Assembly: GCA_030144965.1 (NCBI GenBank)
Contig: JAMPUU010000012.1
Coordinates: forward strand, 124,001 to 188,000
DNA length: 64,000 nt
Direction of reading: 5' to 3'
From: Nitrospira sp. BO4
GTDB taxonomy: Bacteria; Nitrospirota; Nitrospiria; Nitrospirales; Nitrospiraceae
Part shown: in pieces, positions 5,101 to 24,750 of the stretch
Numbering within the stretch: the first letter of the stretch is position 1
How the letters are laid out: the number at the start of each line of letters is the position of its first letter
Translations under genes and position numbers: made by a program
Notes under the pieces: model-generated
What the model was told of the DNA's origin: nothing
Databases searched by the model: none
The model's input: only the letters and a program-made list of their open reading frames with translations

Positions 5101-5919
5101 CTATCTCTCTCCGTCCGTGCGATTCGAACGGAACAAGCGGTTCTGAGTTGCACCGACATGCAAAACACCACGGAGCCTGGGATCATCAATGATCGCGGCG
5201 GCAAGTTCCGGAATCCCCTCGCCTGTCGTCGCGACGGTTCGCAATACCCTGGGACACCATTCCCGCAAGTCCCGCAATGTGGTGTCCGCGCCCGGGAGAT
5301 CGCCTTTGTTGACCACGACGATATGTGCGACTTCCAACAACCCGGCCTTCATCGCTTGAACCTCGTCCCCCAACCCCGGTGCGACGACTGCTACCACCGT
5401 CTGTGCCAGATCGACAATGTCGACTTCGTTCTGGCCGACTCCAATGGTCTCGATCAAGATGACCGCATATCCCGCCTCTTCCAGCACCCGCGTAGCATCA
5501 CGGGTTACTCTGGCTAGTCCTCCGTAGTGCCCTCGGGTCGCCATACTGCGAATATAGACTCCCCGATCCAGCGCATGTCCCTGCATTCTGATACGGTCAC
5601 CCAATAGTGCGCCTCCCGTGACGGGACTGCTGATATCGACCGCCAGCACGCCGACTTTCAGACCGCTCCGCCGATACACGCTTACCAAACGGTCAACAAC
5701 GGTGCTTTTCCCGGCTCCGGGGTACCCCGTGACTCCGATTACCGCGGCGCTTCCCGGTGAGCCGTTTAGGAACGGCAACGCCGCTCTGTCGTCCACGTGA
5801 TCTTCCAGCAAGGTGATCAGGCGTGACACGGCACGAATATTCCCGGCTCTGACCTGCTCAACCAAGGTCGCCACGCCGTGGATACCGGCCACGGACAGGC
5901 GTGGACTCGACACACTCAT
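5101..5919 (-). CDS. meaB: MeaB/ArgK-type GTPase, chaperone of the cobalamin mutase
   Basis: G3E-family P-loop GTPase that protects and reloads methylmalonyl-CoA mutase with adenosylcobalamin. Walker A is GYPGAGKS (about 65-72), the switch region reads ETIGVGQNEVDIVD, and the base-recognition motif is NKGD, where family members usually have NKAD. At 272 residues it is shorter than typical MeaB (about 330): it ends soon after the GTPase core and lacks the C-terminal dimerisation arm. It overlaps the HMG-CoA lyase gene by 4 bp, and both mutase subunits lie upstream in the same block. Confidence 0.9.
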   Translation of the reverse strand: MSVSSPRLSVAGIHGVATLVEQVRAGNIRAVSRLITLLEDHVDDRAALPFLNGSPGSAAVIGVTGYPGAGKSTVVDRLVSVYRRSGLKVGVLAVDISSPVTGGALLGDRIRMQGHALDRGVYIRSMATRGHYGGLARVTRDATRVLEEAGYAVILIETIGVGQNEVDIVDLAQTVVAVVAPGLGDEVQAMKAGLLEVAHIVVVNKGDLPGADTTLRDLREWCPRVLRTVATTGEGIPELAAAIIDDPRLRGVLHVGATQNRLFRSNRTDGER

Positions 5920-7692: not shown

Positions 7693-7699
7693 CGGCGCC

Positions 7700-9304
7700 T
7701 CACATACGGAATACCGGGAAGTGTGACGGACGGACGGGCGTAGTCATCGCGACATCAAGGCACAGACCCAGAACCCGGCGGGTCTCAAGGGGATCGATAA
7801 TCCCGTCATCCCAAAGCCGAGCGGTGCTGAAATAGGCACTGCCTTCCCGTTCATACTGCGCCCGTATGGAATCCGTGATTTTTCGCCGCTCGTCTTCCGG
7901 CAAGGCGGCCTTGTCACGGGCTCGCTGTTGTTGTTTCACCGTCAAGAGTACCTGGGCCGCCTGTTGCGCGCCCATTACCGACGTCCGAGCGTTGGGCCAC
8001 AAGAAGAGAAACCGCGGAGCATAGGCGCGTCCGCACATGGCGTAGTTCCCGGCGCCGTGGGAGGCGCCGATAATAATCGTGAACTTTGGGACATCGGCGG
8101 CCGCCACTGCCTGCACCATCTTGGCGCCGTCCTTGATGATCCCCCGTGACTCATAGTCCTTCCCGACCATGAAGCCGGTGATGTTTTGTAGAAACACGAG
8201 CGGCAGCCGTCTTTGGGCACACAGCTGCACGAAGTGCGCGCCTTTCAAGGCCGCTTCGGAGAGGAGCACGCCGTTGTTCGCGACGATACCGACCTGATGC
8301 CCCATCCAGCGTGCAAAGCCACACGTCAGTGTCCGACCATAACGCGCCTTAAACTCGTGAAATCGACTGCCGTCGACCAAGCGCGCAATAACTTCATGGG
8401 AGTCGAAAGTCTGCCGCGGATTGTTCGGAATGAACCCATAGAGTTCGCTGGCGGGATAACGCGGCTCCTCGACTGTGGCCGGCCGGCGAACGATCTGCCG
8501 GCGAGGGAGGGTATCGACGATCGACCGGCAGATCTCGAGCGCCTCATGGTCATCGTCGGCGAGGTGATCGCTGACGCCCGAGAGTCTTGTATGGAGATCT
8601 GCGCCGCCGAGTTCTTCGGCGGTGACCTCCTCGCCGGTCGCCGCTTTGACCAGCGGCGGCCCCGCGAGATAAATGGTACCGGTCCCTTTGACGATCACGT
8701 TTTCATCGCACATGGCCGGCACATAAGCGCCCCCGGCGGTGCACATTCCCATGACGACGGCGATTTGAGGAATACCGAGGGCGGACAAGCGCGCCTGGTT
8801 GTAAAAGATCCGTCCGAAGTGTTCCTTGTCGGCGAAGACATCGGCTTGCATCGGCAGGAACACTCCACCTGAATCCACCAAATAGATCGTGGGTAATCGA
8901 TTTTCCAGGGCGATCTCCTGAGCCCTGAGATGTTTCTTGATCGTCATGGGGAAATAGGTTCCGCCTTTGACCGTCGCATCGTTGGCGGCGATGACACATG
9001 GCCGTTTCGACACATAGCCGATGCCTGTGATCAAACCAGCAGCCGGAATATGATCGTCGTACATCCCCGATGCCGCCAAGGGACTGAGCTCCAACCAATG
9101 ACTGTCGGGATCAAGCAACGCGGCAATCCGCTCACGCGCAGTCAATTTGCCTCGTTGTTGATGCAACGCGACCGCCTCAGGCGGCCCTCCGGCTTGTGCG
9201 AGGGCGAGATGTTTCTGGAGATCAGCTATCAGGCCCTCATAGTGGGCTCGATTCGCGGCAAATTCACTGCTTGTGGCGACTACTGACGTTGTCAACGTAC
9301 GCAT
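7700..9304 (-). CDS. liuB: Methylcrotonyl-CoA carboxylase-type carboxyltransferase (beta) subunit
   Basis: Acyl-CoA carboxylase beta subunit, 534 residues, the length of 3-methylcrotonyl-CoA carboxylase beta. It transfers carboxyl from carboxybiotin to the acyl-CoA. Characteristic segments are [47 protein letters not shown] and [16 protein letters not shown]; the FLPMQAD string is typical of the methylcrotonyl rather than the propionyl enzymes. It lies 6 bp after the cobalamin-binding subunit gene and 7 bp before the hydratase gene. The biotin carboxylase/biotin-carrier subunit it needs is not encoded in this window. Confidence 0.92.
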
Positions 9305-9310
9305 AGGACC

Positions 9311-9718
9311 TCAGCGCGGTATTTTGAGCCCTTTGACGAAATTCACGACTTCCTGAATGGGCACCCCCGGCCTAAACAGGGCCTTCACCCCCGCCGCTGT
9401 GAGCGACGGAACGTCTTCATCGGGAATGATTCCGCCGCCGAACAAGGCGATGTCCTCTGCATCCTGCTCCTTGAGCAGTTCGAGGACGCGTCGGAACAGC
9501 GTATTGTGCGCGCCTGAAAGAACGCTTAAACCGATCGCATCCACATCCTCCTGAATCGCCGTACTGACCACCTGCTCCGGCGACTGATGCAGCCCGGTAT
9601 AGATGACTTCCATCCCGGCGTCTCGTAGCGCGCGTGCGATGAGTTTCACACCCCGGTCATGGCCATCCAAGCCGACTTTGCCGATGAGAACGCGAAGAGG
9701 AGTGCTCGCTACAGTCAT
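9311..9718 (-). CDS. Cobalamin-binding (small) subunit of methylmalonyl-CoA mutase
   Basis: B12-binding domain protein of 135 residues that carries adenosylcobalamin for the large subunit encoded at 10774-12369. The base-off/His-on motif DxHxxG is present as GLDGHDRG near residue 18, followed by IGLSVLSGAH (about 63-72) and FGGGIIPDEDV (about 93-103), the conserved loops around the nucleotide tail. A separate small subunit is the arrangement of many archaeal and two-subunit bacterial mutases. It overlaps the preceding MBL-fold hydrolase gene by 4 bp. Confidence 0.92.
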   Translation of the reverse strand: MTVASTPLRVLIGKVGLDGHDRGVKLIARALRDAGMEVIYTGLHQSPEQVVSTAIQEDVDAIGLSVLSGAHNTLFRRVLELLKEQDAEDIALFGGGIIPDEDVPSLTAAGVKALFRPGVPIQEVVNFVKGLKIPR

Positions 9719-10557
9719 GCCGCCACCTCCCGCAGAAAATACTTGCCTTCCTGATCCTTTCGAACATACCCGGCTTGAACCAGAGGATCATGCTCGAAGA
9801 GCAGCATCCATCGCTCTTCGAATGCCCGATCCAACACCCAGCGCTTGGTCTCCAGGGTCTGGAGTGGAAAGAGATCGTAGCCCATGATGTAGGGAAGCGG
9901 CAGATGCGACACGGTCGGAATCAGGTCGCCGAGAAAGAACGCCGTTTCCCCTTCCGATTCGATCTTGACGCTCTGATGACAGCGCGTATGGCCGGAGGTG
10001 ACGACCGCGGTGACACCCGGAACCACCTCCGTATCGCCGCGGAGGAATTCCCACTGATCGATCCGGTCGATCGGCGCAAAGTTATCCGGACGGTAACTGG
10101 CCTTGGTTCGTTCATTGGCCCGAGCCGCGTCTTCAAACTCCCCTCGTTGAATGAGATAGCGCGCCTTGGGAAAAGCCGGCCGAACGCCTCCGTCTCCTTC
10201 TCTTATCGTATTTCCCCCAGCATGGTCGAAATGCAGATGTGTATTGATGACCAGATGAATGTCCTCCGCTCCCAGTCCTAACCGCTTCAACGATTGGAGG
10301 ATCGTCGGAGTTCGCTCGACGGCGAACATGCGGTGAAATTTCTGATCCTCCTTAGGCCCTAACCCGGTATCGACCAGAATATTCTTGCCGTTCGCCCGGA
10401 TCAGCAATGCAGTGAGACTGAGGGTGATCCGATTCAATTCGTCGGCATCACAACATTTCTCCCACAAGGGTTTCGGCACGACGCCAAACATCGCCCCACC
10501 GTCCAGCCGAAACCGGCCGTCACTCACCGGGTAAATATCAAACGCCCCGAGCTTCAT
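9715..10557 (-). CDS. MBL-fold metallo-hydrolase
   Basis: Metallo-beta-lactamase fold hydrolase, 280 residues. The zinc-binding HxHxDH motif is NTHLHFDHAGG (His about 107-112), with a second metal histidine in TSGHTRCHQSV and Asp in FFLGDLIPT. It resembles the AHL-lactonase/glyoxalase II-like branch; its substrate is unknown. It is placed between the two mutase subunit genes and overlaps the small-subunit gene by 4 bp, so it may act as a thioesterase or repair hydrolase for a branched-chain intermediate. That role is inference only. There is no signal peptide, so it is expected in the cytoplasm. Confidence 0.85.
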   Translation of the reverse strand: MKLGAFDIYPVSDGRFRLDGGAMFGVVPKPLWEKCCDADELNRITLSLTALLIRANGKNILVDTGLGPKEDQKFHRMFAVERTPTILQSLKRLGLGAEDIHLVINTHLHFDHAGGNTIREGDGGVRPAFPKARYLIQRGEFEDAARANERTKASYRPDNFAPIDRIDQWEFLRGDTEVVPGVTAVVTSGHTRCHQSVKIESEGETAFFLGDLIPTVSHLPLPYIMGYDLFPLQTLETKRWVLDRAFEERWMLLFEHDPLVQAGYVRKDQEGKYFLREVAA

Positions 10558-10773
10558 TCTTCCCTCTCCCTCTGGGCCTCGGCTGGAAGGGTACGGGCAT
10601 GAAGGCTTTCGCCATAGCGCCTGCTGCCATTTCCAAATGCTCTAAGGGTGCCGCTCCGCCGTTCTTCTCGTCCGGTAAGGCGAGCGGCCAACACTCAGAT
10701 CTCCAATTGCCTGCCTTGCTCATCGCATTATGGCGAAGCCGGAGTGGCCTACCCTTCCCAAGCCGAGGCCCTC

Positions 10774-12369
10774 CTACAACACCACCGGCTCCCGATACGT
10801 TCCGAACACTTCCTTCAAGGCCATGCAGATCTCACCCAACGTCGCCTTGGCTTTCACTGCCTCAAGGAGATACGGCATCACGTTCTCGCCGCATGAAGCT
10901 GCTTCCTGCACTGCCTCGACAGCGCCGGCCATCCTGAAGGAATCGCGACATTTGCGCAGGTCCGACAGACATGCCGCCTGCTCACGTTCGACCTCCGGCC
11001 CTATCTTGAGGATCGGAATCGAACGCTCCTCTGATTCCACGTACTCATTGACGCCGACGACGATCCGCTCGTTCCGTTCCAACTCTCGCTGGTACCGTTG
11101 CGAGGCATCGAGGATTTCACGCTGCGGGAAACCCTGCTCGATCGCCCTGACCATGCCGCCCATGTCGTCCAAGCGACGGAAGTAATCCAAGGCCTTCTCT
11201 TCGAGGCGATTCGTGAGGCTCTCGACATAATAGGAGCCGCCGAGCGGATCGATGCTATTGGTGACTTCGCTCTCTTGGGCGATAATCTGCTGCGTACGCA
11301 GCGCCAGTTTCACCGCGCCCTCGGTCGGGAGCGCGAGCGTTTCGTCCATCGAATTGGTATGGAGGGACTGCGTGCCGCCCAAGACGGCTGCGAGGGCTTG
11401 GATCGTCGTGCGAACCACATTGTTCATGGGCTGTTGGCCGGTAAGGGAACAGCCGGCGGTCTGCGCGTGGCACCGGAGCTGCGCCGAACGCGGATCGTTC
11501 GGCCGGTAGCGTCGCGTCACTTCGCGGGCCCACAGTCGACGGGCCGCCCGGAACTTGGCGATCTCTTCGAAGAAATCGTTGTGCGCGTTGAAGAAGAACG
11601 AGAGCTGTGGAGCGAATCGGTCCACCGGGAGACCGGCTTTCACCGCCGCCTCCACGTAGGTCAAGCCGTCGTAAAGAGTGAAGGCCAGTTCCTGTACGGC
11701 GGTCGAGCCGGCTTCCCGGATGTGATACCCGCTGATGCTGACGGGGTGCCATTTGGGCACGTGCTCGACGCAGAATGCGATGGTGTCGGTGATCAGGCGG
11801 AGTGAAGGTTCCGGAGGAAAGAGCCACTCTTTCTGAGCGATGTATTCTTTCAGGATATCGTTCTGCAACGTGCCGTCCAGCTGTTCAAGACGGATACCGC
11901 GCTTCTCCGCCACCGCGAGGTACATCGCGAAGATCACGGCGGCCGGGCCGTTGATCGTCATCGAGGTGGTGACCTGGTCAAGCGGAATCCCGTCGAAGAG
12001 CCGTTCCATATCGTCGATCGACGAGATCGAGACGCCGCAATGGCCGATCTCGCCGTGCGCGAGCGGGGCATCCGCGTCGATCCCCATCAGGGTCGGCATG
12101 TCAAAGGCCACGCTCAGTCCGGTTTGGCCATGTTGGAGGAGATATTTGAAGCGGCGATTGGTATCTTCGGCCGACCCGAACCCGGCGAATTGGCGCATCG
12201 TCCAGAGCCGACCGCGGTACATGGTCGGATACACACCTCGGGTGTATGGAAATTCACCCGGCGCGCCAAGCTCTTCGTCCGGTGACCAGTCCTTCAGATC
12301 GTTGCGTGTATACACACGGCTGGTATCGAAGCCTGAGAGGGAGGGAAATCGCGGTTTGCGCTCTTGCAT
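10774..12369 (-). CDS. Methylmalonyl-CoA mutase-type large (catalytic) subunit
   Basis: Radical B12 acyl-CoA mutase catalytic subunit without its own cobalamin domain, 531 residues. It interconverts methylmalonyl-CoA and succinyl-CoA, or isobutyryl- and butyryl-CoA. Family strings are [34 protein letters not shown]-like [25 protein letters not shown] and [13 protein letters not shown]. At the specificity position usually Tyr in methylmalonyl-CoA mutases the sequence has Phe (MRQFAGFG), while the CoA-carboxylate Arg is kept in PSLRLITD. The small subunit is encoded two genes downstream and the MeaB GTPase further on. Confidence 0.92.
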
Positions 12370-13328: not shown

Positions 13329-14513
13329 CTATCGTTCTACGATCATCGCCAACGCTTCCCCGCCGCCGATACAGAGAGCAGCCAAACCGCGTCTCGCTCC
13401 CCGCGCGGCCATGGCATGAACCAGTGTCGTGAGGATGCGCGCTCCGGTTGCCCCGATGGGGTGGCCGAGCGCGACCGCCCCGCCGTTCACATTCACCTTC
13501 TTCTCATCGAGTCCCAATTCCCGATTGATCGCGAGAGAGACGGCTGAGAACGCTTCGTTGATTTCGAACAGATCGATGTCTCCGATCGTCATGTCCGTCT
13601 GCTTGAGTACCCGTCGAATCGCATCAATGGGCGCAATCGTAAACCATTCCGGCGCCAGCGCTGCTCCGGCATATCCGACAATCCAGGCCATCGGAGCGAG
13701 CCCGAGACGCGCAGCCTCCTCCTCCGCCATGACGACCAGCGCGGCTGCGCCGTCGTTACAGGCAGGGGAATTGCCGACAGTCAGGACGCCGTTGTCCTGG
13801 AATACCGGCTTCAGCTCACGCATCTTGCTGAGATCCACTCGGTTCGGTTCCTCGTCCTCCGCAACCGTCATCGCCGGTCCCTTACGCTGCGGCACTTCGA
13901 TAGGCACAATTTCCTGTTGAAAGGTTCCGGTGGCGATCGCCGCGCGCGCGCGCCGATAGCTCTCGAGCGCGAAGTCGTCCAGTTCTCTTCTCGTCAATCG
14001 ATATTTGGCGGCACACAGCTCGCCTCCGTTGCCCATATGGAAATTGTTGTAGACGTCCCACAGTCCGTCTTTGACGAGACTGTCGACCAATTCCGCATGT
14101 CCCAGGCGATATCCTTGCCGAGCCTTCTCCAGCAAATATGGCGCGCGGGTCATGTTTTCCATTCCCCCTGCCACGACAATGTTCGCTTCTCCAAGGGCAA
14201 TGGCCTGGGAAGCCATGATTACCGTCTGAATGCTTGACCCGCAGACTTTGTTGACGGTCGTTGCTCCGATCGAATTCGGAACTCCAGCCCCGATGGATGC
14301 CTGCCGTGCCGGCGCTTGTCCCAAACCGGCGCCGAGAACACACCCCATATAGACTTGGTCCACGCGTTCCGGCGGTAGTTGAACACGCTTCAACGCTTCG
14401 ACAATGGCCGAACTGCCCAGTTTCGTCGCCGGCACCTGGCTGAACAGGCCGTTGAAACTTCCCATCGGCGTCCGCGCGGCGCTGACGATCACTGCTCGTG
14501 GTCTCCGGTTCAT
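13329..14513 (-). CDS. Acetyl-CoA acetyltransferase (thiolase)
   Basis: Thiolase, 394 residues from the ATG at 14513, which overlaps the stop of the E2 gene as ATGA; an upstream TTG at 14528 is less likely. It cleaves 3-ketoacyl-CoA with CoA, or condenses two acetyl-CoA. The nucleophilic Cys is in NKVCGSSIQ (about 88), the active-site His in NGGAVALGHPIGATGAR, and the second Cys in ALCIGGGEALA near the C terminus. In this block it would release acetyl-CoA (and propionyl-CoA) from Ile and from acetoacetyl-CoA arising in Leu and Tyr breakdown. Confidence 0.93.
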   Translation of the reverse strand: MNRRPRAVIVSAARTPMGSFNGLFSQVPATKLGSSAIVEALKRVQLPPERVDQVYMGCVLGAGLGQAPARQASIGAGVPNSIGATTVNKVCGSSIQTVIMASQAIALGEANIVVAGGMENMTRAPYLLEKARQGYRLGHAELVDSLVKDGLWDVYNNFHMGNGGELCAAKYRLTRRELDDFALESYRRARAAIATGTFQQEIVPIEVPQRKGPAMTVAEDEEPNRVDLSKMRELKPVFQDNGVLTVGNSPACNDGAAALVVMAEEEAARLGLAPMAWIVGYAGAALAPEWFTIAPIDAIRRVLKQTDMTIGDIDLFEINEAFSAVSLAINRELGLDEKKVNVNGGAVALGHPIGATGARILTTLVHAMAARGARRGLAALCIGGGEALAMIVER

Positions 14514-15652
14514 AAGACCTGCTCCCAACGACTCTGTTCGACATAGTGCCTGACCTTGGCCATGAATCGATCCGCGGTCGCGCCATCGATGACGCGGTGA
14601 TCGAATGACAGACTGAGGTAGCCCATCCGTCGAATGGCGATGGCATCATCGATGACGACGGCCCGTTTCTGAATTGCGCCGACGCCCAGAATGGCGATCT
14701 GCGGCTGATAGATGATCGGCGTACTGAACAAGCTGCCGAATCTGCCATGGTTCGTAATCGTAAACGTCCCGCCTTGAACCTCTTCAGGGCTCAATTTCTT
14801 GGACTTAGCCCGCTCGGCGAGATCCCCGATTTCCTTTGCCAGCAGCGTCAGCCCTTTTCGATCCGCGTACCGCACGATCGGGACCAGCAGTCCTTCCTCA
14901 ATCGCCGTGGCGATCCCCATGTGGATATCTTTCTTGACCACGATCCCTTGCTCTCCCCATGACGAGTTCACAATCGGGACATCTCGGATGGCTTTGGTCA
15001 CGGCTCGGACGACAAACGGGAGATACGTGAGTTGTCGCCCTTCTCGGAATTTTGCAATCTGCGAAAAATCGGCTTCGAAAAAGGTGGTGACATGCGCGGA
15101 GGTGTGCTTGCTCTTGACCATCCGATCCGCGATGGTCTTGCGCATCTGCGTCAACGGGCGAATATCTTCGCCCATGGATGACTCGCCGCCTGCAGGGGCG
15201 ACCTTAGGCTGCGCTCCGTTCCCGGCGAGAAAGTCGAGTAGATCCTTCTTGGTCACTCGGCCGCCTGCCCCGGTTCCCTTCACCCGCGAAAGATCGATTC
15301 CATGCTCCCTTGCCAACTGCCGAACCGCCGGAGAATGGTGTTGGTCTCCCGCCGAGGCCGGCGCCATAGGACGGACAACGACTCCTCCAACTCGATTGAC
15401 GACTTCCGAAGGCGGAAGACTGTCGATATGCGCCAGCAACGTTCCCACGGGGACAGTCTCGCCCTCATGAACGATAATCTCGTTGAGCCGGCCGGTGGCA
15501 GGCGAAGGAATTTCCAATGTGACTTTTTCGGTTTCGACTTCCAAGAGCGATTCGTCTTTCTGAATCGTCCCTCCGACCGGAACAAACCACCTGATCACCG
15601 TTCCCTCGGCGATGCTCTCTCCAAGCTGAGGCATGATGATGTCGATGGGCAC
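14510..15652 (-). CDS. Dihydrolipoamide acyltransferase (E2) of a 2-oxoacid dehydrogenase
   Basis: E2 core of a 2-oxoacid dehydrogenase complex, 380 residues, with one lipoyl domain (about 1-77, lipoylated Lys in ETEKVTLEIPSP), a peripheral subunit-binding domain (about 107-145, SPAVRQLAREHGIDLSRV) and the catalytic acyltransferase domain ending with SFDHRVIDGATADRF, which holds the catalytic His and Asp. It is separated by 100 bp from the E1 beta gene upstream. Together with branched-chain catabolic neighbours it most likely belongs to a branched-chain 2-oxoacid dehydrogenase. The E3 (lipoamide dehydrogenase) gene is not in the window. Confidence 0.92.
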   Translation of the reverse strand: MPIDIIMPQLGESIAEGTVIRWFVPVGGTIQKDESLLEVETEKVTLEIPSPATGRLNEIIVHEGETVPVGTLLAHIDSLPPSEVVNRVGGVVVRPMAPASAGDQHHSPAVRQLAREHGIDLSRVKGTGAGGRVTKKDLLDFLAGNGAQPKVAPAGGESSMGEDIRPLTQMRKTIADRMVKSKHTSAHVTTFFEADFSQIAKFREGRQLTYLPFVVRAVTKAIRDVPIVNSSWGEQGIVVKKDIHMGIATAIEEGLLVPIVRYADRKGLTLLAKEIGDLAERAKSKKLSPEEVQGGTFTITNHGRFGSLFSTPIIYQPQIAILGVGAIQKRAVVIDDAIAIRRMGYLSLSFDHRVIDGATADRFMAKVRHYVEQSRWEQVL

Positions 15653-15752: not shown

Positions 15753-16751
15753 TCAATACGCCGCCAATCTCCGTGCAGCGGCAACGACGTCGCTCGCCTT
15801 CGGAAGGAAAAATTCCTCCAGCGGCGTGCTGAACGGCACCGGCGTGTCAGGCGGCGCAATACGAACAATCGGCCCATCCAAACAGTCGAAACAGTCCTCC
15901 GCCAACAGCGCCGCAATTTCGGCCCCGACGCCGCCGGTCTTGTTGTCCTCATGTAGAACAATGGCTTTACTGGTCTTGCTCACCGACGAATAAATGGCTT
16001 CCTTGTCGAGGGGAATCAGCGTGCGCAAGTCGACCACTTCCAGATCGATTCCTTCATGAGCCAAGGTCTGAGCGGCCTCGAGCGCGAGATGGACCATCGC
16101 GCCGTAGGTAATGACCGAGATGTCGTTGCCGGTCCGCTTGATATCGGCCTTTCCCAGCGGGACGATATAATCGTCCTCCGGGAGCGAAGACTTGATGCGT
16201 CGGTACAGAAACTTGTGCTCGAAGTAGATCACCGGGTTGGGGTCGCGAATCGCCGCCTTGAGGAGCCCCTTCGCGTCGTACGGTGTGGACGGGGCGACCA
16301 ACTTGAGTCCCGGGGAGTGGAAGAACCAGCCTTCCGGACATTCAGAATGGAACGGCCCGCCGTGAACACCGCCGCCGAACGGCGCCCGAATAACCATGGG
16401 CACCGCGGCTCCCCACCGATAGTGATTCTTCGCCGCCACCTCAGTGATCTGATCGAACGCGCATGAAATAAAGTCGGCGAACTGCATCTCCACAACCGGA
16501 CGCAGCCCCATCATCGCCGCCCCAATGGCGGCGCCGACAAAACCGGATTCGCACAACGGCGTATCTAACACCCGCCATTCTCCGTATTTTTCGAGAAAGC
16601 CTTCGGTGATTTTGAACGCGCCTCCGTAAGCCCCGATATCTTCACCCATCAGAAATACCCGCTCATCCCGGGCCATTTCTTCGTCCAAGGCTTGCGAGAT
16701 CGCCTCCAAGTAACTCACTTCTCCGGCAGCTTGCGTCGTGGTCGTCATCAT
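15753..16751 (-). CDS. 2-Oxoacid dehydrogenase E1 component, beta subunit
   Basis: Transketolase-like pyrimidine-binding subunit of a thiamine-diphosphate E1, 332 residues, usual length about 325. Characteristic segments are FLMGEDIGAYGGAF near residue 35, CESGFVGAAIGAAMMGLRP near 87, QITEVAAKNHYRWG and FGGGVHGGPFHSE, then VIYFEHKFLYR near 180. It partners the alpha subunit encoded 24 bp upstream and the E2 gene downstream. The pattern GVHGGPFHSE is common in branched-chain-type E1 beta subunits, supporting oxidation of 2-oxoisovalerate, 2-oxoisocaproate and 2-oxo-3-methylvalerate. Confidence 0.92.
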   Translation of the reverse strand: MMTTTTQAAGEVSYLEAISQALDEEMARDERVFLMGEDIGAYGGAFKITEGFLEKYGEWRVLDTPLCESGFVGAAIGAAMMGLRPVVEMQFADFISCAFDQITEVAAKNHYRWGAAVPMVIRAPFGGGVHGGPFHSECPEGWFFHSPGLKLVAPSTPYDAKGLLKAAIRDPNPVIYFEHKFLYRRIKSSLPEDDYIVPLGKADIKRTGNDISVITYGAMVHLALEAAQTLAHEGIDLEVVDLRTLIPLDKEAIYSSVSKTSKAIVLHEDNKTGGVGAEIAALLAEDCFDCLDGPIVRIAPPDTPVPFSTPLEEFFLPKASDVVAAARRLAAY

Positions 16752-16775: not shown

Positions 16776-17774
16776 CTAATGACTGTCGGCGCTGTCCGCG
16801 AACACGCCTATCAATACTTCCGGTCCTTCGGGCAGCGGGCTCTGTTGAGCGAATTCCACACCGGCTTCGACTTCCCGCTTCACACGGTCGACGACTTCCT
16901 GAAAATACCTCTCCTCGGCATATCCAAGCGCTTGGAGCAGCTGCTCCGCTTTCAGGATCGGATCCTTCATCTTCCACTCCTCCAGCAATTCGCGCGGAAC
17001 ATATTTGGCTGGGTCATGCTCGGAATGGCCATGCATCCGCATCGTTTTGAACTCCAGAAAGGTCGGCCCTTCCCCGGCGCGTGCTCTCGCGATCGCCTGT
17101 TTTGCCGCCACATAGACCGCGGCGACATCGTTGCCGTCCACAATTTCACCGGGCATGCCGTAGGCCTTTGCTCGATCGACGACGTCCGCAACCGCCATCT
17201 GCAGACGAATCGGGGTGGAGTATGCGTATTGGTTGTTGTTACAGAAGAACACGACGGGGAGCTTTCGTACCGCTGCGAAGTTCATAGCTTCGTGAAAATC
17301 GCCTCTGCTTGATCCACCGTCACCGGTTCCCGCAAAGGCGACGCGAGATTCTCCTCTGATCCTGAATGCCAGCGCCGCACCGGCCGCCACGGGTAGATTA
17401 TCCGCGAGATGGCTGACGAATCCGAAGACTCCCCGCTTCAGGTCGCCCATGTGCACGTTCCCATCTTTCCCTTTGGTCGGACCGGTCCTTTTTCCAAGGT
17501 ACTGGGCGAGAACTTCGCCCGGCGTGAAGCCTCGAATGAGGAAGGCGCCCATGTCCCGGTGAAAGGGAGCGATGATATCGTCGCGTTCCAACGCGGAGGC
17601 ATAGCCGACCGCAATCGCCTCCATTCCGTGACTCGTATAGACTCCGCCGACAATGCGTCCCTGTCGGTAAAGCGCTGTAATCCTGTCCTCCAGCGCTCTG
17701 GTAAGCCTCAGGTAGTAGTACATCTGGAGCAGATCGTCTCGCTTGATCTCTTTGGCGATGACTGCACAGTCCAT
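16776..17774 (-). CDS. 2-Oxoacid dehydrogenase E1 component, alpha subunit
   Basis: Thiamine-diphosphate-binding alpha subunit of a heterotetrameric E1, 332 residues from the ATG at 17774. The TTG at 17786 is not used because it lies inside the GGAGG ribosome binding site. The ThDP motif runs from GTGDGGSSRGDFHEA to VFFCNNNQYAYSTP, and a phosphorylation-loop-like MRMHGHSEHDPAKYV follows. GVYTSHGMEAIAVG lies near residue 47. It is the first of three cotranscribed complex genes (E1a, E1b, E2). Confidence 0.92.
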   Translation of the reverse strand: MDCAVIAKEIKRDDLLQMYYYLRLTRALEDRITALYRQGRIVGGVYTSHGMEAIAVGYASALERDDIIAPFHRDMGAFLIRGFTPGEVLAQYLGKRTGPTKGKDGNVHMGDLKRGVFGFVSHLADNLPVAAGAALAFRIRGESRVAFAGTGDGGSSRGDFHEAMNFAAVRKLPVVFFCNNNQYAYSTPIRLQMAVADVVDRAKAYGMPGEIVDGNDVAAVYVAAKQAIARARAGEGPTFLEFKTMRMHGHSEHDPAKYVPRELLEEWKMKDPILKAEQLLQALGYAEERYFQEVVDRVKREVEAGVEFAQQSPLPEGPEVLIGVFADSADSH

Positions 17775-17795
17775 GACCACCTCCAAACCACAGGC

Positions 17796-18548
17796 TTACA
17801 GAGCCGGCATGTCCCTCCATGAGAGCAACGGTTTGTTGTCTCTGCATAGAGGACAATGCTGTGGCTCCCATTGGGGCATGTCGAGATCCGTCGTGTAATA
17901 AAATGGATGCTGTGCGACGAGTTCATCCATCAGCGGAAACTGACCGCTGTCACGGCGGGCGAAGACCATCATTCCTGCCAACAGACCCCCATTGTCCGTG
18001 ATGACTGTCCCGAGTTTACTCACGCAATTGCCGCGTGTAGTGACATCGTTGAGCGCCAGGAAACGCTCACCGGCCGTAATGGCGCCGGCGGTAATGTCCG
18101 TGCCTATTCGTCCTGTCTCACAGCTGTATGGCGTCAACCCGATACGCATTTGCATCGTGTCTCGAAGCTCAGCCGCGATGGCTCGGGCAAGTTGCTCCGC
18201 GGCCGAGCTCGTCGCCACGACTCCGGTTATGGGACGGCCTTGAAACGTCTGCCTGATCCAGCCAGCCATATCTCCGGCCAACGTTCGGATGAGTTCAGGA
18301 TAACGCGCGATCGAATCGAACCGTAAATACGTGGCGGTGTGATGGCCCGATACGACCTCCACATGGGTATCGAAAAAGACGGATCGAGACATACGCAGTA
18401 CATGCAGGATGTCTTCCGTAGTCAGATCAGTGTGCGAACCGGGGCGGATAATAGCTCTCAGCTTTGCGTCCATCGTCGGCCCGTGATAGAGCGCACGATG
18501 TCGTTCCATCACCTCCGAGAGGACCTGCTCAACCATGCCGATAAGCAT
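17796..18548 (-). CDS. Orotate-phosphoribosyltransferase-like (PRTase-fold) protein
   Basis: A 250-residue protein related to type I phosphoribosyltransferases. The central part reads VVATSSAAEQLARAIAAEL and then AGERFLALNDVTTRGNCVS, which lines up with the PRPP loop of orotate phosphoribosyltransferases but has Asn where the first acidic residue of the DD pair is expected. The C terminus carries HCPLCRDNKPL, a CxxC unit absent from classical enzymes. The ATG at 18548 follows AAGGGGG and overlaps the FAH-family gene. Its presence within an amino-acid catabolic operon is unexplained; it could be a PRTase with another substrate or a nucleotide-sensing protein. Confidence 0.7.
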   Translation of the reverse strand: MLIGMVEQVLSEVMERHRALYHGPTMDAKLRAIIRPGSHTDLTTEDILHVLRMSRSVFFDTHVEVVSGHHTATYLRFDSIARYPELIRTLAGDMAGWIRQTFQGRPITGVVATSSAAEQLARAIAAELRDTMQMRIGLTPYSCETGRIGTDITAGAITAGERFLALNDVTTRGNCVSKLGTVITDNGGLLAGMMVFARRDSGQFPLMDELVAQHPFYYTTDLDMPQWEPQHCPLCRDNKPLLSWRDMPAL

Positions 18549-19542
18549 CTTCACCCCCTTGTGCTTCAGTCACCACACGGGTTCTAAGAACGCCGATCGG
18601 CTGGATCTCCAACTCCACCACGTCGCCCGGCTTCAAATAGCGGTCCATCTCCAGCCCGCATCCGCCCCCCACCGTTCCCGAACCGAAGACATCTCCCGGA
18701 TAGATCATTTCACCTCGGGACACATGCGCGATCATTTGAGGGAAGGACCAATGGATGGTCCCGAATCGTCCTCGCGACCACTCTTCTCCGTTAACCCTCG
18801 CGATCATCGTCAACGCACCGAGGTCCGCGATCTCATCGGGAGTCACGAGACAGGGACCCAGTGCGGTCGCGAAGTCCTTGCCCTTCGCCGGTCCCAGCCG
18901 ACAGGCCATTTCCTGGAATTGGATGTCGCGGGCGCTGAAGTCATTCATGATCGTGTATCCCGCGATATAGTCTCCGGCGAGCCGTTCAGGTATGTCGCTA
19001 CCCTGGCGCCCGATCACGCAGGCGAGCTCCAGCTCGTAATCCAACTTCGTCGTGTGCAGCGGCCATGATAGATCCTGGTCCGGCCCGACGATGGTGCGGT
19101 GGTTCCCTTTGTAGTAGACGGGCGCCTTGTACCATTCAGGAGGAATCGGCTGTCCCCGCTTCTTCGAGGTCGCAGCGATATGGTCTTCAAACGCAATAAA
19201 GTCCCGGAGCGAAGACGGATTGGAGAGAGGAGCGATGACTTGAACCTCTGCCCCCCCATACAGAATCGACTCACCGGATGGGCCCATGACCGATGTGGGT
19301 AGTGCGGTGACATAGTCTTTCGCGCGGCGTGCCGCGGCCATTGTGGATTCTCCTCCTTCGAGGAACTCCAACATGGCGGGCGGAACCTGCGCATCGGCTA
19401 TGCGGCGCGGTTGCGCTTCCTGTTGATCCGCCAACCACCGGGCATAGGCCATGTTCAAGTCTATGACCCACTGGAGATGTACGGCTCCGACTCTTGTGAA
19501 GGTACCGACAGGAGTTTTCACTCGGAAACTGACGAGCTTCAT
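18529..19542 (-). CDS. Fumarylacetoacetate hydrolase family protein
   Basis: FAH-fold hydrolase, 337 residues from the ATG at 19542 (ATGA overlap with the homogentisate dioxygenase stop). It is expected to cleave fumarylacetoacetate to fumarate and acetoacetate, the last step of the homogentisate pathway. Visible family features are an N-terminal domain starting MKLVSFRVKTPVG, then YELELACVIGRQG near 187 with metal-binding acidic residues, YTIMNDFSARDIQFQEM, and SGTVGGGCGLEMDRYLKPGD in part near the C terminus. The ring-cleavage gene next to it supports the substrate. Related family members hydrolyse other acylpyruvates. Confidence 0.88.
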   Translation of the reverse strand: MKLVSFRVKTPVGTFTRVGAVHLQWVIDLNMAYARWLADQQEAQPRRIADAQVPPAMLEFLEGGESTMAAARRAKDYVTALPTSVMGPSGESILYGGAEVQVIAPLSNPSSLRDFIAFEDHIAATSKKRGQPIPPEWYKAPVYYKGNHRTIVGPDQDLSWPLHTTKLDYELELACVIGRQGSDIPERLAGDYIAGYTIMNDFSARDIQFQEMACRLGPAKGKDFATALGPCLVTPDEIADLGALTMIARVNGEEWSRGRFGTIHWSFPQMIAHVSRGEMIYPGDVFGSGTVGGGCGLEMDRYLKPGDVVELEIQPIGVLRTRVVTEAQGGEDAYRHG

Positions 19543-20645
19543 GGGCGACTCCAACTCAATGCGTAGTCTTTGATCTCCACAGCCTCCAGCTCCGGTTGAA
19601 CCGTGAAGGGAGCCTTAGACTCCACCATCACCGCCACCTCGGTTGTGTACGTCTTCGTTCGGCTGCCTTGGACCGCCTGCGGTTGCGGGCCGTGGTGGAT
19701 TCCCTGGGGATGCAAGGTGAGCATCCCCGGCCGGATGCCTGCGCGACTGAAGAACTCTCCATCATGATAGAAGAGCACTTCGTCGTAGTCCGTATTTCGA
19801 TGATAAAAGGGGACACGCAAAGCCTCCGGATCAGTTTCCAGCGGTCTTGGAGCAAACGTGGAGATCAGACACCCGCCGGCTTGAAACGTCTGATGGACGC
19901 TCGGCGGCAAATGATAGCGAGGGCTGACGACCGGCCGGAAATCCCGCACATTCAGTTTCGCGACCCATAAGTCTCCTTTCCACCCAACCACATCCATGGG
20001 ATAGAAAGAATAGACAACCCGCGTCCAGGCGCCTTGACGCTTGATCCGCACTTCCCATGCTCGACCGACCGTCTCTACCGGCTCCACCGTTTCCAAGTCC
20101 GGAGCGACAAGCACGCCTTTATCGAAGAGCGCGTGCTGTCCGAGAGCTCCCCGATCCGGCACCGCCAAAGGAAGCGGTGTTTCGATAGTGAGGAAAACGG
20201 AAGGGCCGGCGTCGACATGAATTCGATAGGTCGTACCTTTGGGAATCAAGACGTAATCGCCCGGCTCATAAGCCAGAAACCCATAGTCAGTCTCAAATCT
20301 TCCAAGACCCTTATGCACGAAATGAACTTCGTCTCCATCCGCATTGCGGACGAAATAGGGCGTCGTTTCATGTGGACAGGACAGGTAGAGATTGGCATCC
20401 GGGCTGTGCAGCACCAGCGCTGACTGCGTGGGCACCGCCAATGCGGTTTCAGGAAACTGCGAACAGTCAAAGGCCCTCGGCTTCAATGTTCCTTCGATCG
20501 CGGTCCATGCAGTCGGTGGATGCCGGCGATAGAGATGAGAAACGGCACCTACAAACCCGTTTCGCCCATGTTCTTCTTCGTAAAGCCCCTCGGGAATCCC
20601 GACATGAGCTTGGTTGGGAACCTTTCCTCTCCTCTTGAGATACAT
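19539..20645 (-). CDS. hmgA: Homogentisate 1,2-dioxygenase
   Basis: Cupin-type Fe(II) ring-cleavage dioxygenase, 368 residues, somewhat shorter than the roughly 430 of the animal and Pseudomonas enzymes but in the range of other bacterial forms. It opens homogentisate to maleylacetoacetate. Iron ligands are expected in FYHRNTDYDEVLFYH (His and Glu, near 285-300) and HPQGIHHGPQP (near 318-328). The N terminus MYLKRRGKVPNQAH is typical of the family. It is 32 bp after the VOC dioxygenase gene and overlaps the FAH-family gene. A maleylacetoacetate isomerase gene is not seen nearby. Confidence 0.9.
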   Translation of the reverse strand: MYLKRRGKVPNQAHVGIPEGLYEEEHGRNGFVGAVSHLYRRHPPTAWTAIEGTLKPRAFDCSQFPETALAVPTQSALVLHSPDANLYLSCPHETTPYFVRNADGDEVHFVHKGLGRFETDYGFLAYEPGDYVLIPKGTTYRIHVDAGPSVFLTIETPLPLAVPDRGALGQHALFDKGVLVAPDLETVEPVETVGRAWEVRIKRQGAWTRVVYSFYPMDVVGWKGDLWVAKLNVRDFRPVVSPRYHLPPSVHQTFQAGGCLISTFAPRPLETDPEALRVPFYHRNTDYDEVLFYHDGEFFSRAGIRPGMLTLHPQGIHHGPQPQAVQGSRTKTYTTEVAVMVESKAPFTVQPELEAVEIKDYALSWSRP

Positions 20646-20677: not shown

Positions 20678-21271
20678 TCACGATGCCTTCTTCATTCGCT
20701 TCTTTTGCTCGTTCCGTGGCATGGAAGGTGAGTCATAATCGACGATCGTCCGTGTCACACCGGAGGTTTGATCACGCTCAATATCCTTGTACAGCGATTC
20801 CACCGTGCTCCGGACAAATGTCCTCGACGTTCCTTCTCCGTGCTGCCGCTGAGTCAGCTCGATAAACAGCCCGCTGTTCAGAAAAAGGGGATAGGTGAAG
20901 CGCTGCTTGAGCGGTCCGAAGCCATCCCTCCCCTCTTTCACCGGCCCACTGAACTGCACGCCATGCGCCTCCCACTCTCGGCACACCGTTTCGATATCGT
21001 CGACCTCGAGGGCCACATGCTGGACGCCCTGTCCGTACCGTTCTATGAATTCATTGATTTGAGACTTTCGGATCTTGTCTCTCCCCTGCATCAGAGCAAT
21101 CTTGGCGGTTCCGCGCTGGACGACAACGGTATCCATCGAAGACGTGTCGCTTCCCACGTCTTTGGCAGACCAGATCACCTCGAACCCGAGAATCTTGGCA
21201 AATATGAATTCCGCGGTTGCCAGATCGTCGACACAGAGAGTGACGTGATCAAAACCCGTGTTCTGTTTCAT
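20678..21271 (-). CDS. Single-domain VOC dioxygenase resembling 4-hydroxyphenylpyruvate dioxygenase
   Basis: Vicinal-oxygen-chelate protein of 197 residues. It has FDHVTLCVDDL at the N terminus (His 9), YGQGVQHVALEVDD near 78-91 and LFIELTQRQHG near 137-147; the three metal-ligand positions His, His, Glu match the catalytic half of 4-hydroxyphenylpyruvate dioxygenase, whose strings are GVQHIA and FIE-QR. Full-length HPPD has two VOC modules and about 350 residues, so this is about half size. As first gene of the block, just before homogentisate dioxygenase, it probably supplies homogentisate. It starts behind CGGAGGCGCT, the same ribosome binding site as the divergent gene at 21510. Confidence 0.8.
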   Translation of the reverse strand: MKQNTGFDHVTLCVDDLATAEFIFAKILGFEVIWSAKDVGSDTSSMDTVVVQRGTAKIALMQGRDKIRKSQINEFIERYGQGVQHVALEVDDIETVCREWEAHGVQFSGPVKEGRDGFGPLKQRFTYPLFLNSGLFIELTQRQHGEGTSRTFVRSTVESLYKDIERDQTSGVTRTIVDYDSPSMPRNEQKKRMKKAS

Positions 21272-21290: not shown

Positions 21291-21500
21291 CAAGAACCTC
21301 GCTTTTATAGTATTATTATATTGCCTGATTAAATATTACTATTTTTCTTATGCTATGACAAGATGCTTTATGTAGCTATGTTTAATTGCAATGCTTCACG
21401 CTACTAATTGTTGTAGAAGTCCATAATTGCACAGTATTGCCGTAATGATATAGAATTGCTATTATCCTGGTGGGCAAGACCGGCTTCGCCAAGAACCTCG
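21291..21500. promoter_or_regulatory. Divergent promoter region with an 11-bp direct repeat
   Basis: AT-rich intergenic region separating the 21-kb minus-strand block from the plus-strand gene set. The 11-mer CAAGAACCTCG occurs at 21291-21301 and again at 21490-21500, close to the two start codons, and may be an operator or a small duplication. A minus-strand TATAAT lies at 21320-21315 without a convincing -35 box. The HTH protein encoded at 22385 is the nearest candidate regulator. The promoter role is inferred from divergent orientation. Confidence 0.5.
21437..21465 (+). promoter_or_regulatory. Candidate sigma70 promoter for the HDO gene
   Basis: TTGCCG at 21437-21442 and TATTAT at 21460-21465 are separated by 17 bp. 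Transcription would start near 21472, leaving a leader of about 38 bases before the ATG at 21510. The match is reasonable but not experimentally supported. Confidence 0.4.
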
Positions 21501-21509
21501 GAGGCGCCT

Positions 21510-22253
21510 ATGACTTTCTACCAAGAAATGAGGCAACTCGTCCTGCGACATGGAGCCATCAACAATTCCTACCTTGGCCGCTTTCGTTCCGGAGACCTCA
21601 CCGACGGCGAACTCAAAGAATTTGCCGTGGAGTTCTACAACTTCGCCAGATTTTTCCCGCAAGTTCTCGTCGCTCAGCTCGTGAATACCGAAGATGAACA
21701 GATCGCCGACGAGCTGACGAAAGTGCTGTACTCGGAATTGGGTGACGGAGAGACTCGGCGCCGCCACGAGCTGCTGTACCGTGACTTTTTGCGGTCTCTA
21801 GGGATCGATATTCACGACGCGATGACCCGCTCCATGCTGCCTTCAACGCGCGCCTATATCGAAGGGATGGAGAAACTCTACAGTGATGGCAATCATGCAA
21901 AAGCCTTGGGCGCCTCATTCGGCCTTGAAAATATGGCCATCACGATGTGGGATCATCTGATCCCGGGTCTCCTGCACCTGAAAACCCTTCGCCACCCGCA
22001 AATGGACCTGACCTATTTCACCTTTCACCGGCAGCTGGAGCAGAGTCATGAAGAAGCCATGAAACAAGCCGTTCAAGTCATGGATGGTGAACCAGGGTCG
22101 GCGACTTTCGCGGTTCAGCAGGAACAAGACTTCCAAGAGGGTGTGAAGGCCGTGTTGAACTATCTGGAAGGATTTTGGCTGGGGCTCGAAAAGCGGCGAT
22201 CCGGCAACATCCGACAGTCTGCACAGACTGACGTGCGAATGACGGTCACTTAG
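21510..22253 (+). CDS. Heme-oxygenase-fold (HDO / TenA-like, iron-containing redox) protein
   Basis: All-helical heme-oxygenase-like diiron-type protein, 247 residues from the ATG at 21510 behind CGGAGGCGCC; an upstream in-frame start at 21456 lies on the promoter and is rejected. Candidate metal ligands follow the HDO pattern: Glu 76 and/or Glu 81 and His 86 (YSELGDGETRRRHELLY), Glu 140 (FGLENMAITMWDH), His 173 and His 180 (FHRQLEQSHEEAM). Relatives include CADD, UndA and PqqC-like enzymes acting on amino-acid-derived or aromatic substrates with O2. It heads the plus-strand set with the HTH and tryptophanase-like genes, so a substrate connected to aromatic amino acids is possible but unproven. 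Confidence 0.8.
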   Translation: MTFYQEMRQLVLRHGAINNSYLGRFRSGDLTDGELKEFAVEFYNFARFFPQVLVAQLVNTEDEQIADELTKVLYSELGDGETRRRHELLYRDFLRSLGIDIHDAMTRSMLPSTRAYIEGMEKLYSDGNHAKALGASFGLENMAITMWDHLIPGLLHLKTLRHPQMDLTYFTFHRQLEQSHEEAMKQAVQVMDGEPGSATFAVQQEQDFQEGVKAVLNYLEGFWLGLEKRRSGNIRQSAQTDVRMTVT

Positions 22254-22384: not shown

Positions 22385-23347
22385 ATGACGGAAATCGCGG
22401 AATACTTCGAATTGGTCAAGGGGCGGTACGGATTGAGCAGCGATTACGCCTTGGCGGAGAAACTGGGAATCGCTCAGCCGGAAGCCAACCTGATGCGCCG
22501 AGGGCTCAAAGTCCCCAAGCCGGAATTGTGCATCAAGATCGCTAAACTCCTGAACAAGAATCCAGTAGAACTCCTCCTGATCGCTCAAAAAGACAAAGCC
22601 CCGAAACAGGCCAAAGAGTACTGGACCCTGGCGCAGACCGCCGTCGGAGTCATGCTCCACGTCCCGAAGAGCCCGAAATACATTCCACGCAAAGTAGCAG
22701 CCATCGGACAAGAACTCCGCCAGCTTGAAACACAGACGTTGCTCTACGAAGGCGCCGAAGCAAATGCGGAAGCCGTTCGGCTCGTCCAAACCGCGGAACA
22801 ATCCATGGACGCCATCATGGAGCGATGGAACATCTGGAAAAAGGGAGAGGCCTTATACCCAAGCTACCTGTTGGCCAACCAAGCGGCGGTCAAGCGAGGG
22901 GTCACGATTCGCCGCCTCATAGTCCTGACACGCGAACAGATGCGACAAGAATCGGTCGTCACGGATGCCATCCAGGTCATGGATGACCAATATCGGGCGG
23001 GCATCAAGATCTTCTTTGCGTTTCGTGAAGAGCTTGAACGGGCGGCCGCCTTTCAACGTTTCGAGGAAGATTACAGGCAACAAGGGGCCGCGCGGGATCT
23101 CAATACCGCCATCTTTGACAGAGAGATTCTGATCTTTTCCCGATCCTACGGGCAAGTCCAGCTCGGCATGGTGTCGCCCACCATACCGATTACGATGATC
23201 AACCAACTGGAAATCACGTGGAAGCCGGAGTTGTTGCGGGACCTCGATCCGGCTCCGCTCTTCGACATGACCCGATACGTGTTCGAATTTTGCGAACCCC
23301 GGGCTTTCAAGATGGAACTGGAGCGATTCATCAGGTCGGTTGCATGA
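22385..23347 (+). CDS. HTH transcriptional regulator with a long C-terminal sensor-like domain
   Basis: A 320-residue protein from the ATG at 22385 (GAGG upstream). Residues about 5-65 form a Cro/C1-like helix-turn-helix: YALAEKLGIAQPEANLMRRG, then CIKIAKLLNKNPVELLLIAQ. The remaining part (about 110-320) contains PSYLLANQAAVKRGVTIRRL and FDREILIFSRSYGQVQLGM; spacing and hydrophobic pattern recall PLD-like ligand domains found behind HTH modules, but no catalytic HKD is seen. Its stop overlaps the tryptophanase-like start as ATGA. It is the best local candidate for controlling the divergent promoters. Confidence 0.7.
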   Translation: MTEIAEYFELVKGRYGLSSDYALAEKLGIAQPEANLMRRGLKVPKPELCIKIAKLLNKNPVELLLIAQKDKAPKQAKEYWTLAQTAVGVMLHVPKSPKYIPRKVAAIGQELRQLETQTLLYEGAEANAEAVRLVQTAEQSMDAIMERWNIWKKGEALYPSYLLANQAAVKRGVTIRRLIVLTREQMRQESVVTDAIQVMDDQYRAGIKIFFAFREELERAAAFQRFEEDYRQQGAARDLNTAIFDREILIFSRSYGQVQLGMVSPTIPITMINQLEITWKPELLRDLDPAPLFDMTRYVFEFCEPRAFKMELERFIRSVA

Positions 23348-24750
23348 AATTCCCTTCCGAGCCGTTCAAAATCAAGGTGGTGGAGCCCATTCGTCACACG
23401 ACTCGCGAAGAGCGCGACAGGCTCCTGCGCACCGCCGGCTACAATCTGTTTCAGGTCCCAGCAGAGAGTGTGTATGTCGATCTCTTGACCGATAGCGGCA
23501 CAGCGGCCATGAGCGACCGGCAATGGGCCGGCCTGATGTTAGGGGACGAGTCTTATGCCGGCAGCAGAAACTACTACCATCTGGAAGAAACAGTCCGGTC
23601 AATCTTCGGTTATAAGCACGTCATTCCGACTCATCAGGGGCGTATGGCGGAAAATCTTCTCTTCTCCGTCATCCTGAAGCCGGGCACGTATGTCCCGAAC
23701 AATATTCATTTCGATACCACACGTGCCAACGTCGAGCATCAACGGGCGCACGCCCTCGATCTGGTCATCAAGGAAGCATACGACCCGCACAGCGAGTTGC
23801 CCTTCAAGGGGAATATGGATCTTAGTCGGCTCGAAGAAACGATTCATCGCGTGGGCCGTGAACACATTCCACTCGTGATGATCACCATCACCAATAACAG
23901 CGGCGGCGGCCAACCGGTCTCGATGGAGAATATCCGTCAAACCCGGAGATTGCTCAATCGGTATGACATTCCTCTGTTCTTTGACGCCTGTCGATTCGCC
24001 GAAAATTGCTACTTCATCAAGGAACGTGAACAAGGATACGCCGACCGGTCTATTGCCGACATCGCCCGTGAACTCTTTTCTTACGGGGACGGTTGTACGA
24101 TGTCGGCCAAGAAGGACGGGCTTGTCAATATCGGAGGCTTTCTAAGCTTGAACAACGATCAGTGGTCCCAAGAGATCACCAATATGCTGATCTTGGTGGA
24201 AGGCTTTCCGACGTATGGCGGCCTGGCAGGCAGAGATCTCGAGGCAATGGCCCAAGGACTTCAAGAAGTGCTGGATGAGGACTATCTCCGTTTCCGAATC
24301 GGGCAGGTTCGATACTTGGGCGAGCTCCTCAACCAATCCGGCGTCCCGATCCTCAAGCCGATCGGCGGCCATGCGGTCTACCTCAACGCGAAAGAATTTC
24401 TCCCTCACATTCCCCGAATCGAATTTCCCGGGCAAGCGCTGGCCGTCGCTCTGTACCGGGATTACGGCATTCGAGGTGTTGAGATCGGCACCCTCATGTT
24501 TGGGAAAAAGGATCCAATGACTGGCGAGACCATTCATCCCGAATTGGAGATGGTCAGACTCGCCCTGCCTCGGCGTGTCTATACGAACATGCAGATCACC
24601 TATGTCGCGGAGTCCATCATCGAATTGTATCAAAGACGCGAGCTGATCCACGGCCTCTCGTTGACCTATGAGGCGCCGATGTTGCGCCATTTTACGGCGC
24701 GCTTTGCCGAGCTGGACGCGTCACCGTCTCTGGAACCGATGACTGTCTAA
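23344..24750 (+). CDS. tnaA: Tryptophanase-like beta-eliminating lyase (PLP)
   Basis: PLP-dependent tryptophanase/tyrosine phenol-lyase family, 468 residues from the ATG at 23344 (42 codons inside the longest open frame). The PLP lysine is in MSAKKDGLVNIGG. Near the C terminus the sequence reads RGVEIGTLMFG and LRHFTARF: the tryptophanase pattern (VEIG, HFTA) rather than the tyrosine phenol-lyase pattern (MERG, FFTA), so cleavage of tryptophan to indole, pyruvate and ammonia is favoured. It is translationally coupled to the HTH gene and followed 9 bp later by an acyl-CoA dehydrogenase gene. Confidence 0.85.
   Translation: MKFPSEPFKIKVVEPIRHTTREERDRLLRTAGYNLFQVPAESVYVDLLTDSGTAAMSDRQWAGLMLGDESYAGSRNYYHLEETVRSIFGYKHVIPTHQGRMAENLLFSVILKPGTYVPNNIHFDTTRANVEHQRAHALDLVIKEAYDPHSELPFKGNMDLSRLEETIHRVGREHIPLVMITITNNSGGGQPVSMENIRQTRRLLNRYDIPLFFDACRFAENCYFIKEREQGYADRSIADIARELFSYGDGCTMSAKKDGLVNIGGFLSLNNDQWSQEITNMLILVEGFPTYGGLAGRDLEAMAQGLQEVLDEDYLRFRIGQVRYLGELLNQSGVPILKPIGGHAVYLNAKEFLPHIPRIEFPGQALAVALYRDYGIRGVEIGTLMFGKKDPMTGETIHPELEMVRLALPRRVYTNMQITYVAESIIELYQRRELIHGLSLTYEAPMLRHFTARFAELDASPSLEPMTV

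Follow-up and report, generated by a model that had tools for sequence, protein, structure and literature searches.

A divergent orotate phosphoribosyltransferase-like protein fixed in a homogentisate-type operon of Nitrospirales, with a possible role in the place of maleylacetoacetate isomerase

The orotate phosphoribosyltransferases (OPRTs) of the Thermus type (TIGR01367; structure 4paw) share with the OPRT-like protein of Nitrospira described here, OPRTL, the phosphoribosyltransferase (PRTase) fold, the SGxH motif, the second acid of the PRPP loop, R201 and a CPLC tail. OPRTL differs from them by replacement of a loop acid (E to N), of a T by R and of an S by C, by loss of the PPi loop and of the KPGSR end, by an N-terminal extension, by its location in a catabolic operon and by a score far under the family cut-off. 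PurR of Bacillus and haloarchaeal GfcR are PRTase-fold regulators and, like OPRTL, have this fold without an evident transferase role. The third system to be compared, maleylacetoacetate isomerase (maiA, TIGR01262), has a GST fold unrelated to that of OPRTL and uses glutathione, but shares with OPRTL its operon position, after the genes for homogentisate-1,2-dioxygenase (HGD) and the FAH-family hydrolase in related operons.

The window, i.e. the whole stretch of 64,000 nucleotides of Nitrospira sp. BO4 DNA that was analysed, carries the following features.

14510..15652, minus strand: 2-oxoacid dehydrogenase E2, labelled by position and a look at the sequence
15753..16751, minus strand: 2-oxoacid dehydrogenase E1 beta, labelled in the same way
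16776..17786, minus strand: 2-oxoacid dehydrogenase E1 alpha, a neighbour that is not always linked
17796..18548, minus strand: OPRTL, 250 amino acids, start ATG 18548
17796..18554, minus strand: OPRTL from the alternative in-frame start GTG 18554, 252 amino acids
17844..17855, minus strand: tail C234-P-L-C237 of OPRTL, span computed from residue numbers
18021..18053, minus strand: altered PRPP loop of OPRTL, L168-N-D-V-T-T-R-G-N-C-V178, span computed from residue numbers in the 18554 frame
18529..19554, minus strand: FAHL, FAH-family hydrolase, directly upstream of OPRTL
19539..20645, minus strand: HGDL, short homogentisate-1,2-dioxygenase-like cupin
20678..21271, minus strand: HPPDL, single-domain protein corresponding to 4-hydroxyphenylpyruvate dioxygenase (HPPD) in its C-terminal half
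21456..22253, plus strand: HDO, divergently oriented haem-oxygenase-like iron enzyme (Haem_oxygenas_2)

Residues of OPRTL are numbered with GTG 18554 as position 1; as AAGGGGGTG immediately 5' of ATG 18548 resembles a ribosome-binding site, the start at this ATG, which had been chosen in an earlier note made from the window sequence, agrees with the data. The overlap with the FAH-family gene reported there was found to be 20 nt from the ATG and 26 nt from the GTG, and OPRTL is indeed sandwiched between FAHL upstream and the E1-alpha gene just downstream. A scan of genome contigs with query-derived patterns, which reaches close relatives only, placed the closest relatives, 75-78% identical, in Nitrospira MAGs and in N. 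moscoviensis. The reading frame is intact and free of in-frame stops, and dN/dS values (Nei-Gojobori) were 0.11-0.18 against eight relatives and 0.09-0.22 in five other pairs, next to 0.02-0.18 for FAHL, HGDL and HPPDL. The OPRTL gene of the window is thus real, intact and under purifying selection. A decayed pseudogene was considered and rejected in view of the absence of stops, the low dN/dS and the invariance of the switched residues described below. The term 'degenerate' used in the earlier note aptly describes the missing canonical residues, yet the gene is not decaying, as N169, D170, R174 and C177 are invariant in 22 relatives. Two MAG copies (L030 9160-10017 and L065 10001-10768) shift frame near the C-terminal tail, possibly by true frameshifts or by assembly errors.

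In the 58 OPRTL loci, wherever enough sequence was available, OPRTL was preceded in order by FAHL (54/54), HGDL (52/52) and HPPDL (51/51), and HDO was found in divergent orientation beyond this quartet in all 49 loci that were long enough. The E1-alpha gene lay downstream of OPRTL in 50 of 54 loci, the exceptions being L062, which belongs to the Nitrospinota by its record label, L063, L064 and L066. Of the two genes that flank OPRTL, only FAHL is therefore constant, and a special tie to the 2-oxoacid dehydrogenase genes was not borne out. A functional link between OPRTL and E1/E2 was also considered and is weakened by the four loci in which the quartet is present without a downstream E1-alpha gene.

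Strong OPRTL matches occurred in 53 of 395 genomes of the phylum, all of them within the order, and were patchy in the genus of the window. Outside the phylum, the sole plasmid match was a pyrE with 21% identity. A close HGDL was detected in 50 of the 146 genomes of the order and a distant HGD in three more. All 50 genomes with a close HGDL carried OPRTL (42 by the phylum search and eight by follow-up, one of them split over contig ends), and all 53 OPRTL genomes carried HGDL (42 by the order search and 11 by follow-up, two being cut by contig ends), counts which describe linked and largely co-inherited genes, not 61 independent events.

The three genomes with the distant HGD (G242, G401 and G421) were without OPRTL, save for a fragment in G242. 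At the old site of the latter, the E1-alpha, E1-beta and E2 genes are retained on one side and prpD, prpB and prpC on the other, and the scar between E1-alpha and prpD (L123, contig C7 of G242, 6023-7085) holds a 63-residue OPRTL remnant with 40% identity, together with a stretch that starts like the end of HDO and is, by eye, a probable HDO remnant. Elsewhere in their genomes, G242 and G401 have a cluster encoding a two-domain HPPD, FAH, HGD, a flavin-reductase-like protein, a thiolase and an acyl-CoA-synthetase-like protein, with an HDO-like gene nearby, and in G421 matches to HPPD, FAH, HGD, thiolase and HDO were obtained. Near-full-length HPPD was found in these three genomes only within the order sample, whereas the OPRTL genomes matched the C-terminal part of HPPD only. 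Neither OPRTL nor maiA was detected in the three replacement clusters. Hence, the quartet disappeared as a unit and gave way to a different homogentisate-type cluster, and this joint loss and replacement supports a common function of the four genes. The link between OPRTL and the pathway is strong, and OPRTL is very probably a component of a homogentisate-type pathway and not a PyrE.

The flavin-reductase-like protein is encoded right after HGD in the replacement clusters (L120 7960-8604, minus strand; L121 9533-10177, plus strand). Its possible bearing on the missing step was considered and set aside: 263 plasmid records were matched, and the one region opened, from Azoarcus, had no annotated homogentisate genes. 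HDO is found beside the replacement cluster too (L120 3918-4739; ∼25% identical by tblastn).

As regards the position of OPRTL, the nearest plasmid-borne HGDs to HGDL were those of Photobacterium, Variovorax, Aeromonas and Vibrio. Eight regions with HGDL relatives were opened out of 138 records, and in three of them maiA followed FAH: in Vibrio, Photobacterium and Aeromonas, whose HGDs are 43-46% identical to HGDL, HGD and FAH are followed by a maiA gene scoring 269, 291 and 289 bits, respectively, against a cut-off of 171, and HPPD ahead of HGD was evident in Vibrio and Aeromonas, with no long HPPD open reading frame in Photobacterium. By the HGD-FAH-maiA order of these plasmid operons, OPRTL occupies the maiA slot. 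In Variovorax, hppD, a small open reading frame, HGD and FAH are followed by a FAD-binding protein at the place of maiA; nothing was evident after FAH on that strand in the Tistrella region, Streptomyces clavuligerus had a lone HGD, the Priestia region showed a different gene order and no annotated maiA, and the cyanobacterium Kovacikia had, by labels given by eye, the order HPPD-HGD-HDO-like-synthetase-like (HDO-like gene at L142 7322-8245). Among the 146 genomes of the order, none had a maiA over the cut-off, weak GST-like matches being seen in four and no match in the genome of the window itself. The glutathione synthetase gene gshB was likewise over its cut-off in none of 77 genomes of the order, with weak matches in 11 and no match in the genome of the window.

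By sequence family, OPRTL is closest to the Thermus-type OPRTs. TIGR01367 (pyrE_Therm) was its best match in NCBIfam (E 4.8e-10), although with 39.3 bits it did not reach the curated cut-off of 150.25 bits, and three relatives scored 37-48 bits. In Pfam at E 0.01, the window protein gave no match and Pribosyltran matched 5 of 22 OPRTL members. An AlphaFold2 model based on an alignment of 22 rows had a mean pLDDT of 85.6, with two weak stretches, 173-175 and 203-206, under 50. Its best fold match was 4paw (H. pylori HP1257; Z 16.9, rmsd 2.8, 186 residues aligned), with other PRTases at Z ≤14.6. In a tree of 22 OPRTL, 10 Thermus-type PyrE and three E. coli-type PyrE sequences, all OPRTL grouped together with a support of 0.935, next to a clade of the Thermus-type sequences supported at 0.95. 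OPRTL is accordingly a divergent monophyletic offshoot of Thermus-type OPRT found in Nitrospirales. No match to the maiA family TIGR01262 was obtained for it in NCBIfam, the fold matches being PRTases.

Comparison with the 10 Thermus-type PyrE sequences revealed a rebuilt pocket. These PyrE share 87 invariant positions, and at 19 of them at least 90% of the 22 OPRTL sequences retain the same residue, among them H64, S69, G70, H72, Y76, D170, G175, R201, C234 and C237, while other active-site positions have switched to residues that are now invariant in OPRTL (L to H71, L to S117, G to A119, E to N169, T to R174, S to C177, E to K180, D to R200, S to D202 and G to S203), L181 being among further positions that switched to a now invariant residue. 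In addition, the GG of the PPi loop has become (S/D/A)A, and the LRRG segment, invariant in the Thermus-type PyrE, is not conserved. The loop reads FLALNDVTTRG as described earlier, with the ND pair confirmed, but the 'usual DD pair' to which it had been compared is ED in the nearest OPRT class: VEDV(I/V)TTG, present in all 10 Thermus-type PyrE, is replaced by NDVT(T/A)RGxC in OPRTL. N169 stands in for the first loop acid in each of the 57 loci that contain the loop, and N169, D170, V171, T172, R174, G175, C177 and V178 are invariant in the 22 relatives. The CPLC unit, by contrast, is not an addition to the C terminus as had been proposed, since CP(L/M)C stands close to the end of all 10 Thermus-type PyrE taken from this phylum and 4paw aligns through its own CPLC. 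Both C234 and C237 are invariant in the 22 relatives, and the CxxC tail is present in 56 of 58 loci, the remaining two being those that change frame near the end.

Taken as a whole, our preferred explanation is a neofunctionalized PRTase-fold protein that is the fourth fixed component of the operon and takes the place of maiA, to which we give a probability of roughly one in three. Among the open roles, replacement of maiA is the one indicated by the arrangement of the operon and by the lack of a glutathione system. OPRTL descended from a Thermus-type OPRT with type-I PRTase fold and would have acquired a new function. HPPDL would make homogentisate or a close analogue from a tyrosine-like aromatic compound, HGDL would open the ring, and FAHL would hydrolyse the diketo-acid. 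In between, we infer tentatively that OPRTL isomerizes the maleyl ring-cleavage product. The former PRPP pocket would hold the carboxylates of this product by R174, R200, R201 and the SGHH histidines, and C177, at a position occupied by Ser/Thr in phosphate-binding OPRTs and adjacent to the helix at the back of the old phosphate loop, might add to the cis double bond, which would then rotate before the cysteine leaves, so that glutathione would not be needed. Being invariant and lying in what was the phosphate loop, C177 is a plausible nucleophile; it would have the catalytic role here, and the product would be maleylacetoacetate. In this most specific form, a glutathione-independent PRTase-fold maleylacetoacetate isomerase whose pocket is rebuilt on C177 and arginines and which has displaced maiA in Nitrospira, the proposal is possible but rather doubtful. 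If true, it would mean that a PRTase-fold pocket has moved away from phosphoribosyl transfer and taken up another chemistry, and it would suggest how bacteria without glutathione complete homogentisate breakdown.

Several observations argue against the isomerase reading. The maiA slot is filled by maiA in only three of the eight comparison regions, linked and vertically inherited genes may co-occur without a common reaction, and the location of C177 is taken from the sequence alignment, the model being weak close to it and at 203-206. HDO is an equally constant companion and could itself be the isomerase, or more generally the missing pathway step. Moreover, three relatives have lost the OPRTL gene, and some homogentisate pathways in the order seem to run without OPRTL or maiA, so that the isomerase may not be essential. 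The gentisate pathway is known to have FAH-family enzymes with direct hydrolytic activity on the maleyl isomer; if FAHL accepted it as well, an isomerase would perhaps be unneeded. The substrate of the quartet may also differ from plain homogentisate, as the nearest plasmid relatives of FAHL (Haloarcula and Thermomicrobium, two regions) and of HPPDL (Vibrio and Sinorhizobium, two regions) were, by annotation, not located in homogentisate operons.

It is an equally serious possibility that OPRTL acts on another step of the same pathway, for example by decarboxylating, hydrolysing or protecting a reactive intermediate or as a partner of FAHL, with FAHL hydrolysing the maleyl isomer directly. The strict linkage to FAHL, HGDL and HPPDL, the overlap with the FAHL gene and the replacement clusters that make do with neither OPRTL nor maiA all agree with such a role, although it names no step and would leave the occupation of the maiA slot to chance.

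That OPRTL is a working phosphoribosyltransferase for an acceptor other than orotate, such as a pathway-linked aromatic or heterocyclic acid, is unlikely. The type-I fold and the conserved D170, G175, H72, R201 and CxxC would allow it, but the first loop acid has given way to an invariant N169, the PPi loop has lost its GG, LRRG is not conserved, and Pribosyltran is recognized in the minority of members given above. PRPP binding appears doubtful, with this acid lost and the 5'-phosphate positions now occupied by R174 (formerly T) and C177 (formerly S). Of the roles offered by the earlier note, use of another substrate fits best, as opposed to a PRPP signal.

Still less likely is a ligand-sensing regulator of the PurR/GfcR kind that responds to PRPP or to a pathway intermediate. 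PurR is among the fold matches (1o57, Z 13.6; 1p4a, Z 13.1), and OPRTL has a helical N-terminal extension of ∼42 residues outside the part aligned to OPRTs, yet this extension consists of two helices and is poorly conserved at its start, and the whole window protein gave no DNA-binding match in Pfam and no PurR or GfcR match in NCBIfam. A separate HTH gene is present near the locus.

A second, divergent PyrE is highly improbable: the top-scoring family is one of OPRTs, but at 39 versus 150 bits, the pocket residues are swapped for other invariant ones, OPRTL always lies within a homogentisate-type operon, and the genome of the window has its own PyrE of 191 amino acids (loop VDDVLTSG, segment RKQAKDHG) which passes TIGR00336 with 128.6 bits against a cut-off of 106.8. 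With this separate PyrE over the curated cut-off, OPRTL is not the PyrE of the cell, in line with the earlier view that a pyrimidine role does not fit; the counter-case named in the earlier note, a complementing pyrE with no other pyrE in the genome, does not apply, and naming its gene orotate phosphoribosyltransferase would mislead.

Among open-licence PMC papers retrieved for Nitrospira, homogentisate, orotate phosphoribosyltransferase or maleylacetoacetate, no paper on OPRTL was found in titles and the beginnings of abstracts; in PMC7193043, the passage on tyrosine concerns other bacteria. For the nitrite-oxidizing Nitrospira, the operon represents a conserved and testable route for an aromatic compound. 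The plasmid relatives of HPPDL in Vibrio europaeus and Sinorhizobium adjoin NRPS, aminotransferase and chorismate-mutase genes. Elsewhere in the window, a long catabolic cluster (622-12369, minus strand) contains, by eye, citrate-synthase-like, prpB-like, prpD-like, MeaB-like, HMG-CoA-lyase-like and carboxylase-like genes and enoyl-CoA hydratases, as well as the methylmalonyl-CoA mutase large subunit, the sole member that was matched against families. Finally, a gene of the tryptophanase/tyrosine phenol-lyase family (23218-24750, plus strand; NF009709, 694 bits) adjoins an acyl-CoA dehydrogenase gene and occurs in only some of the related loci.
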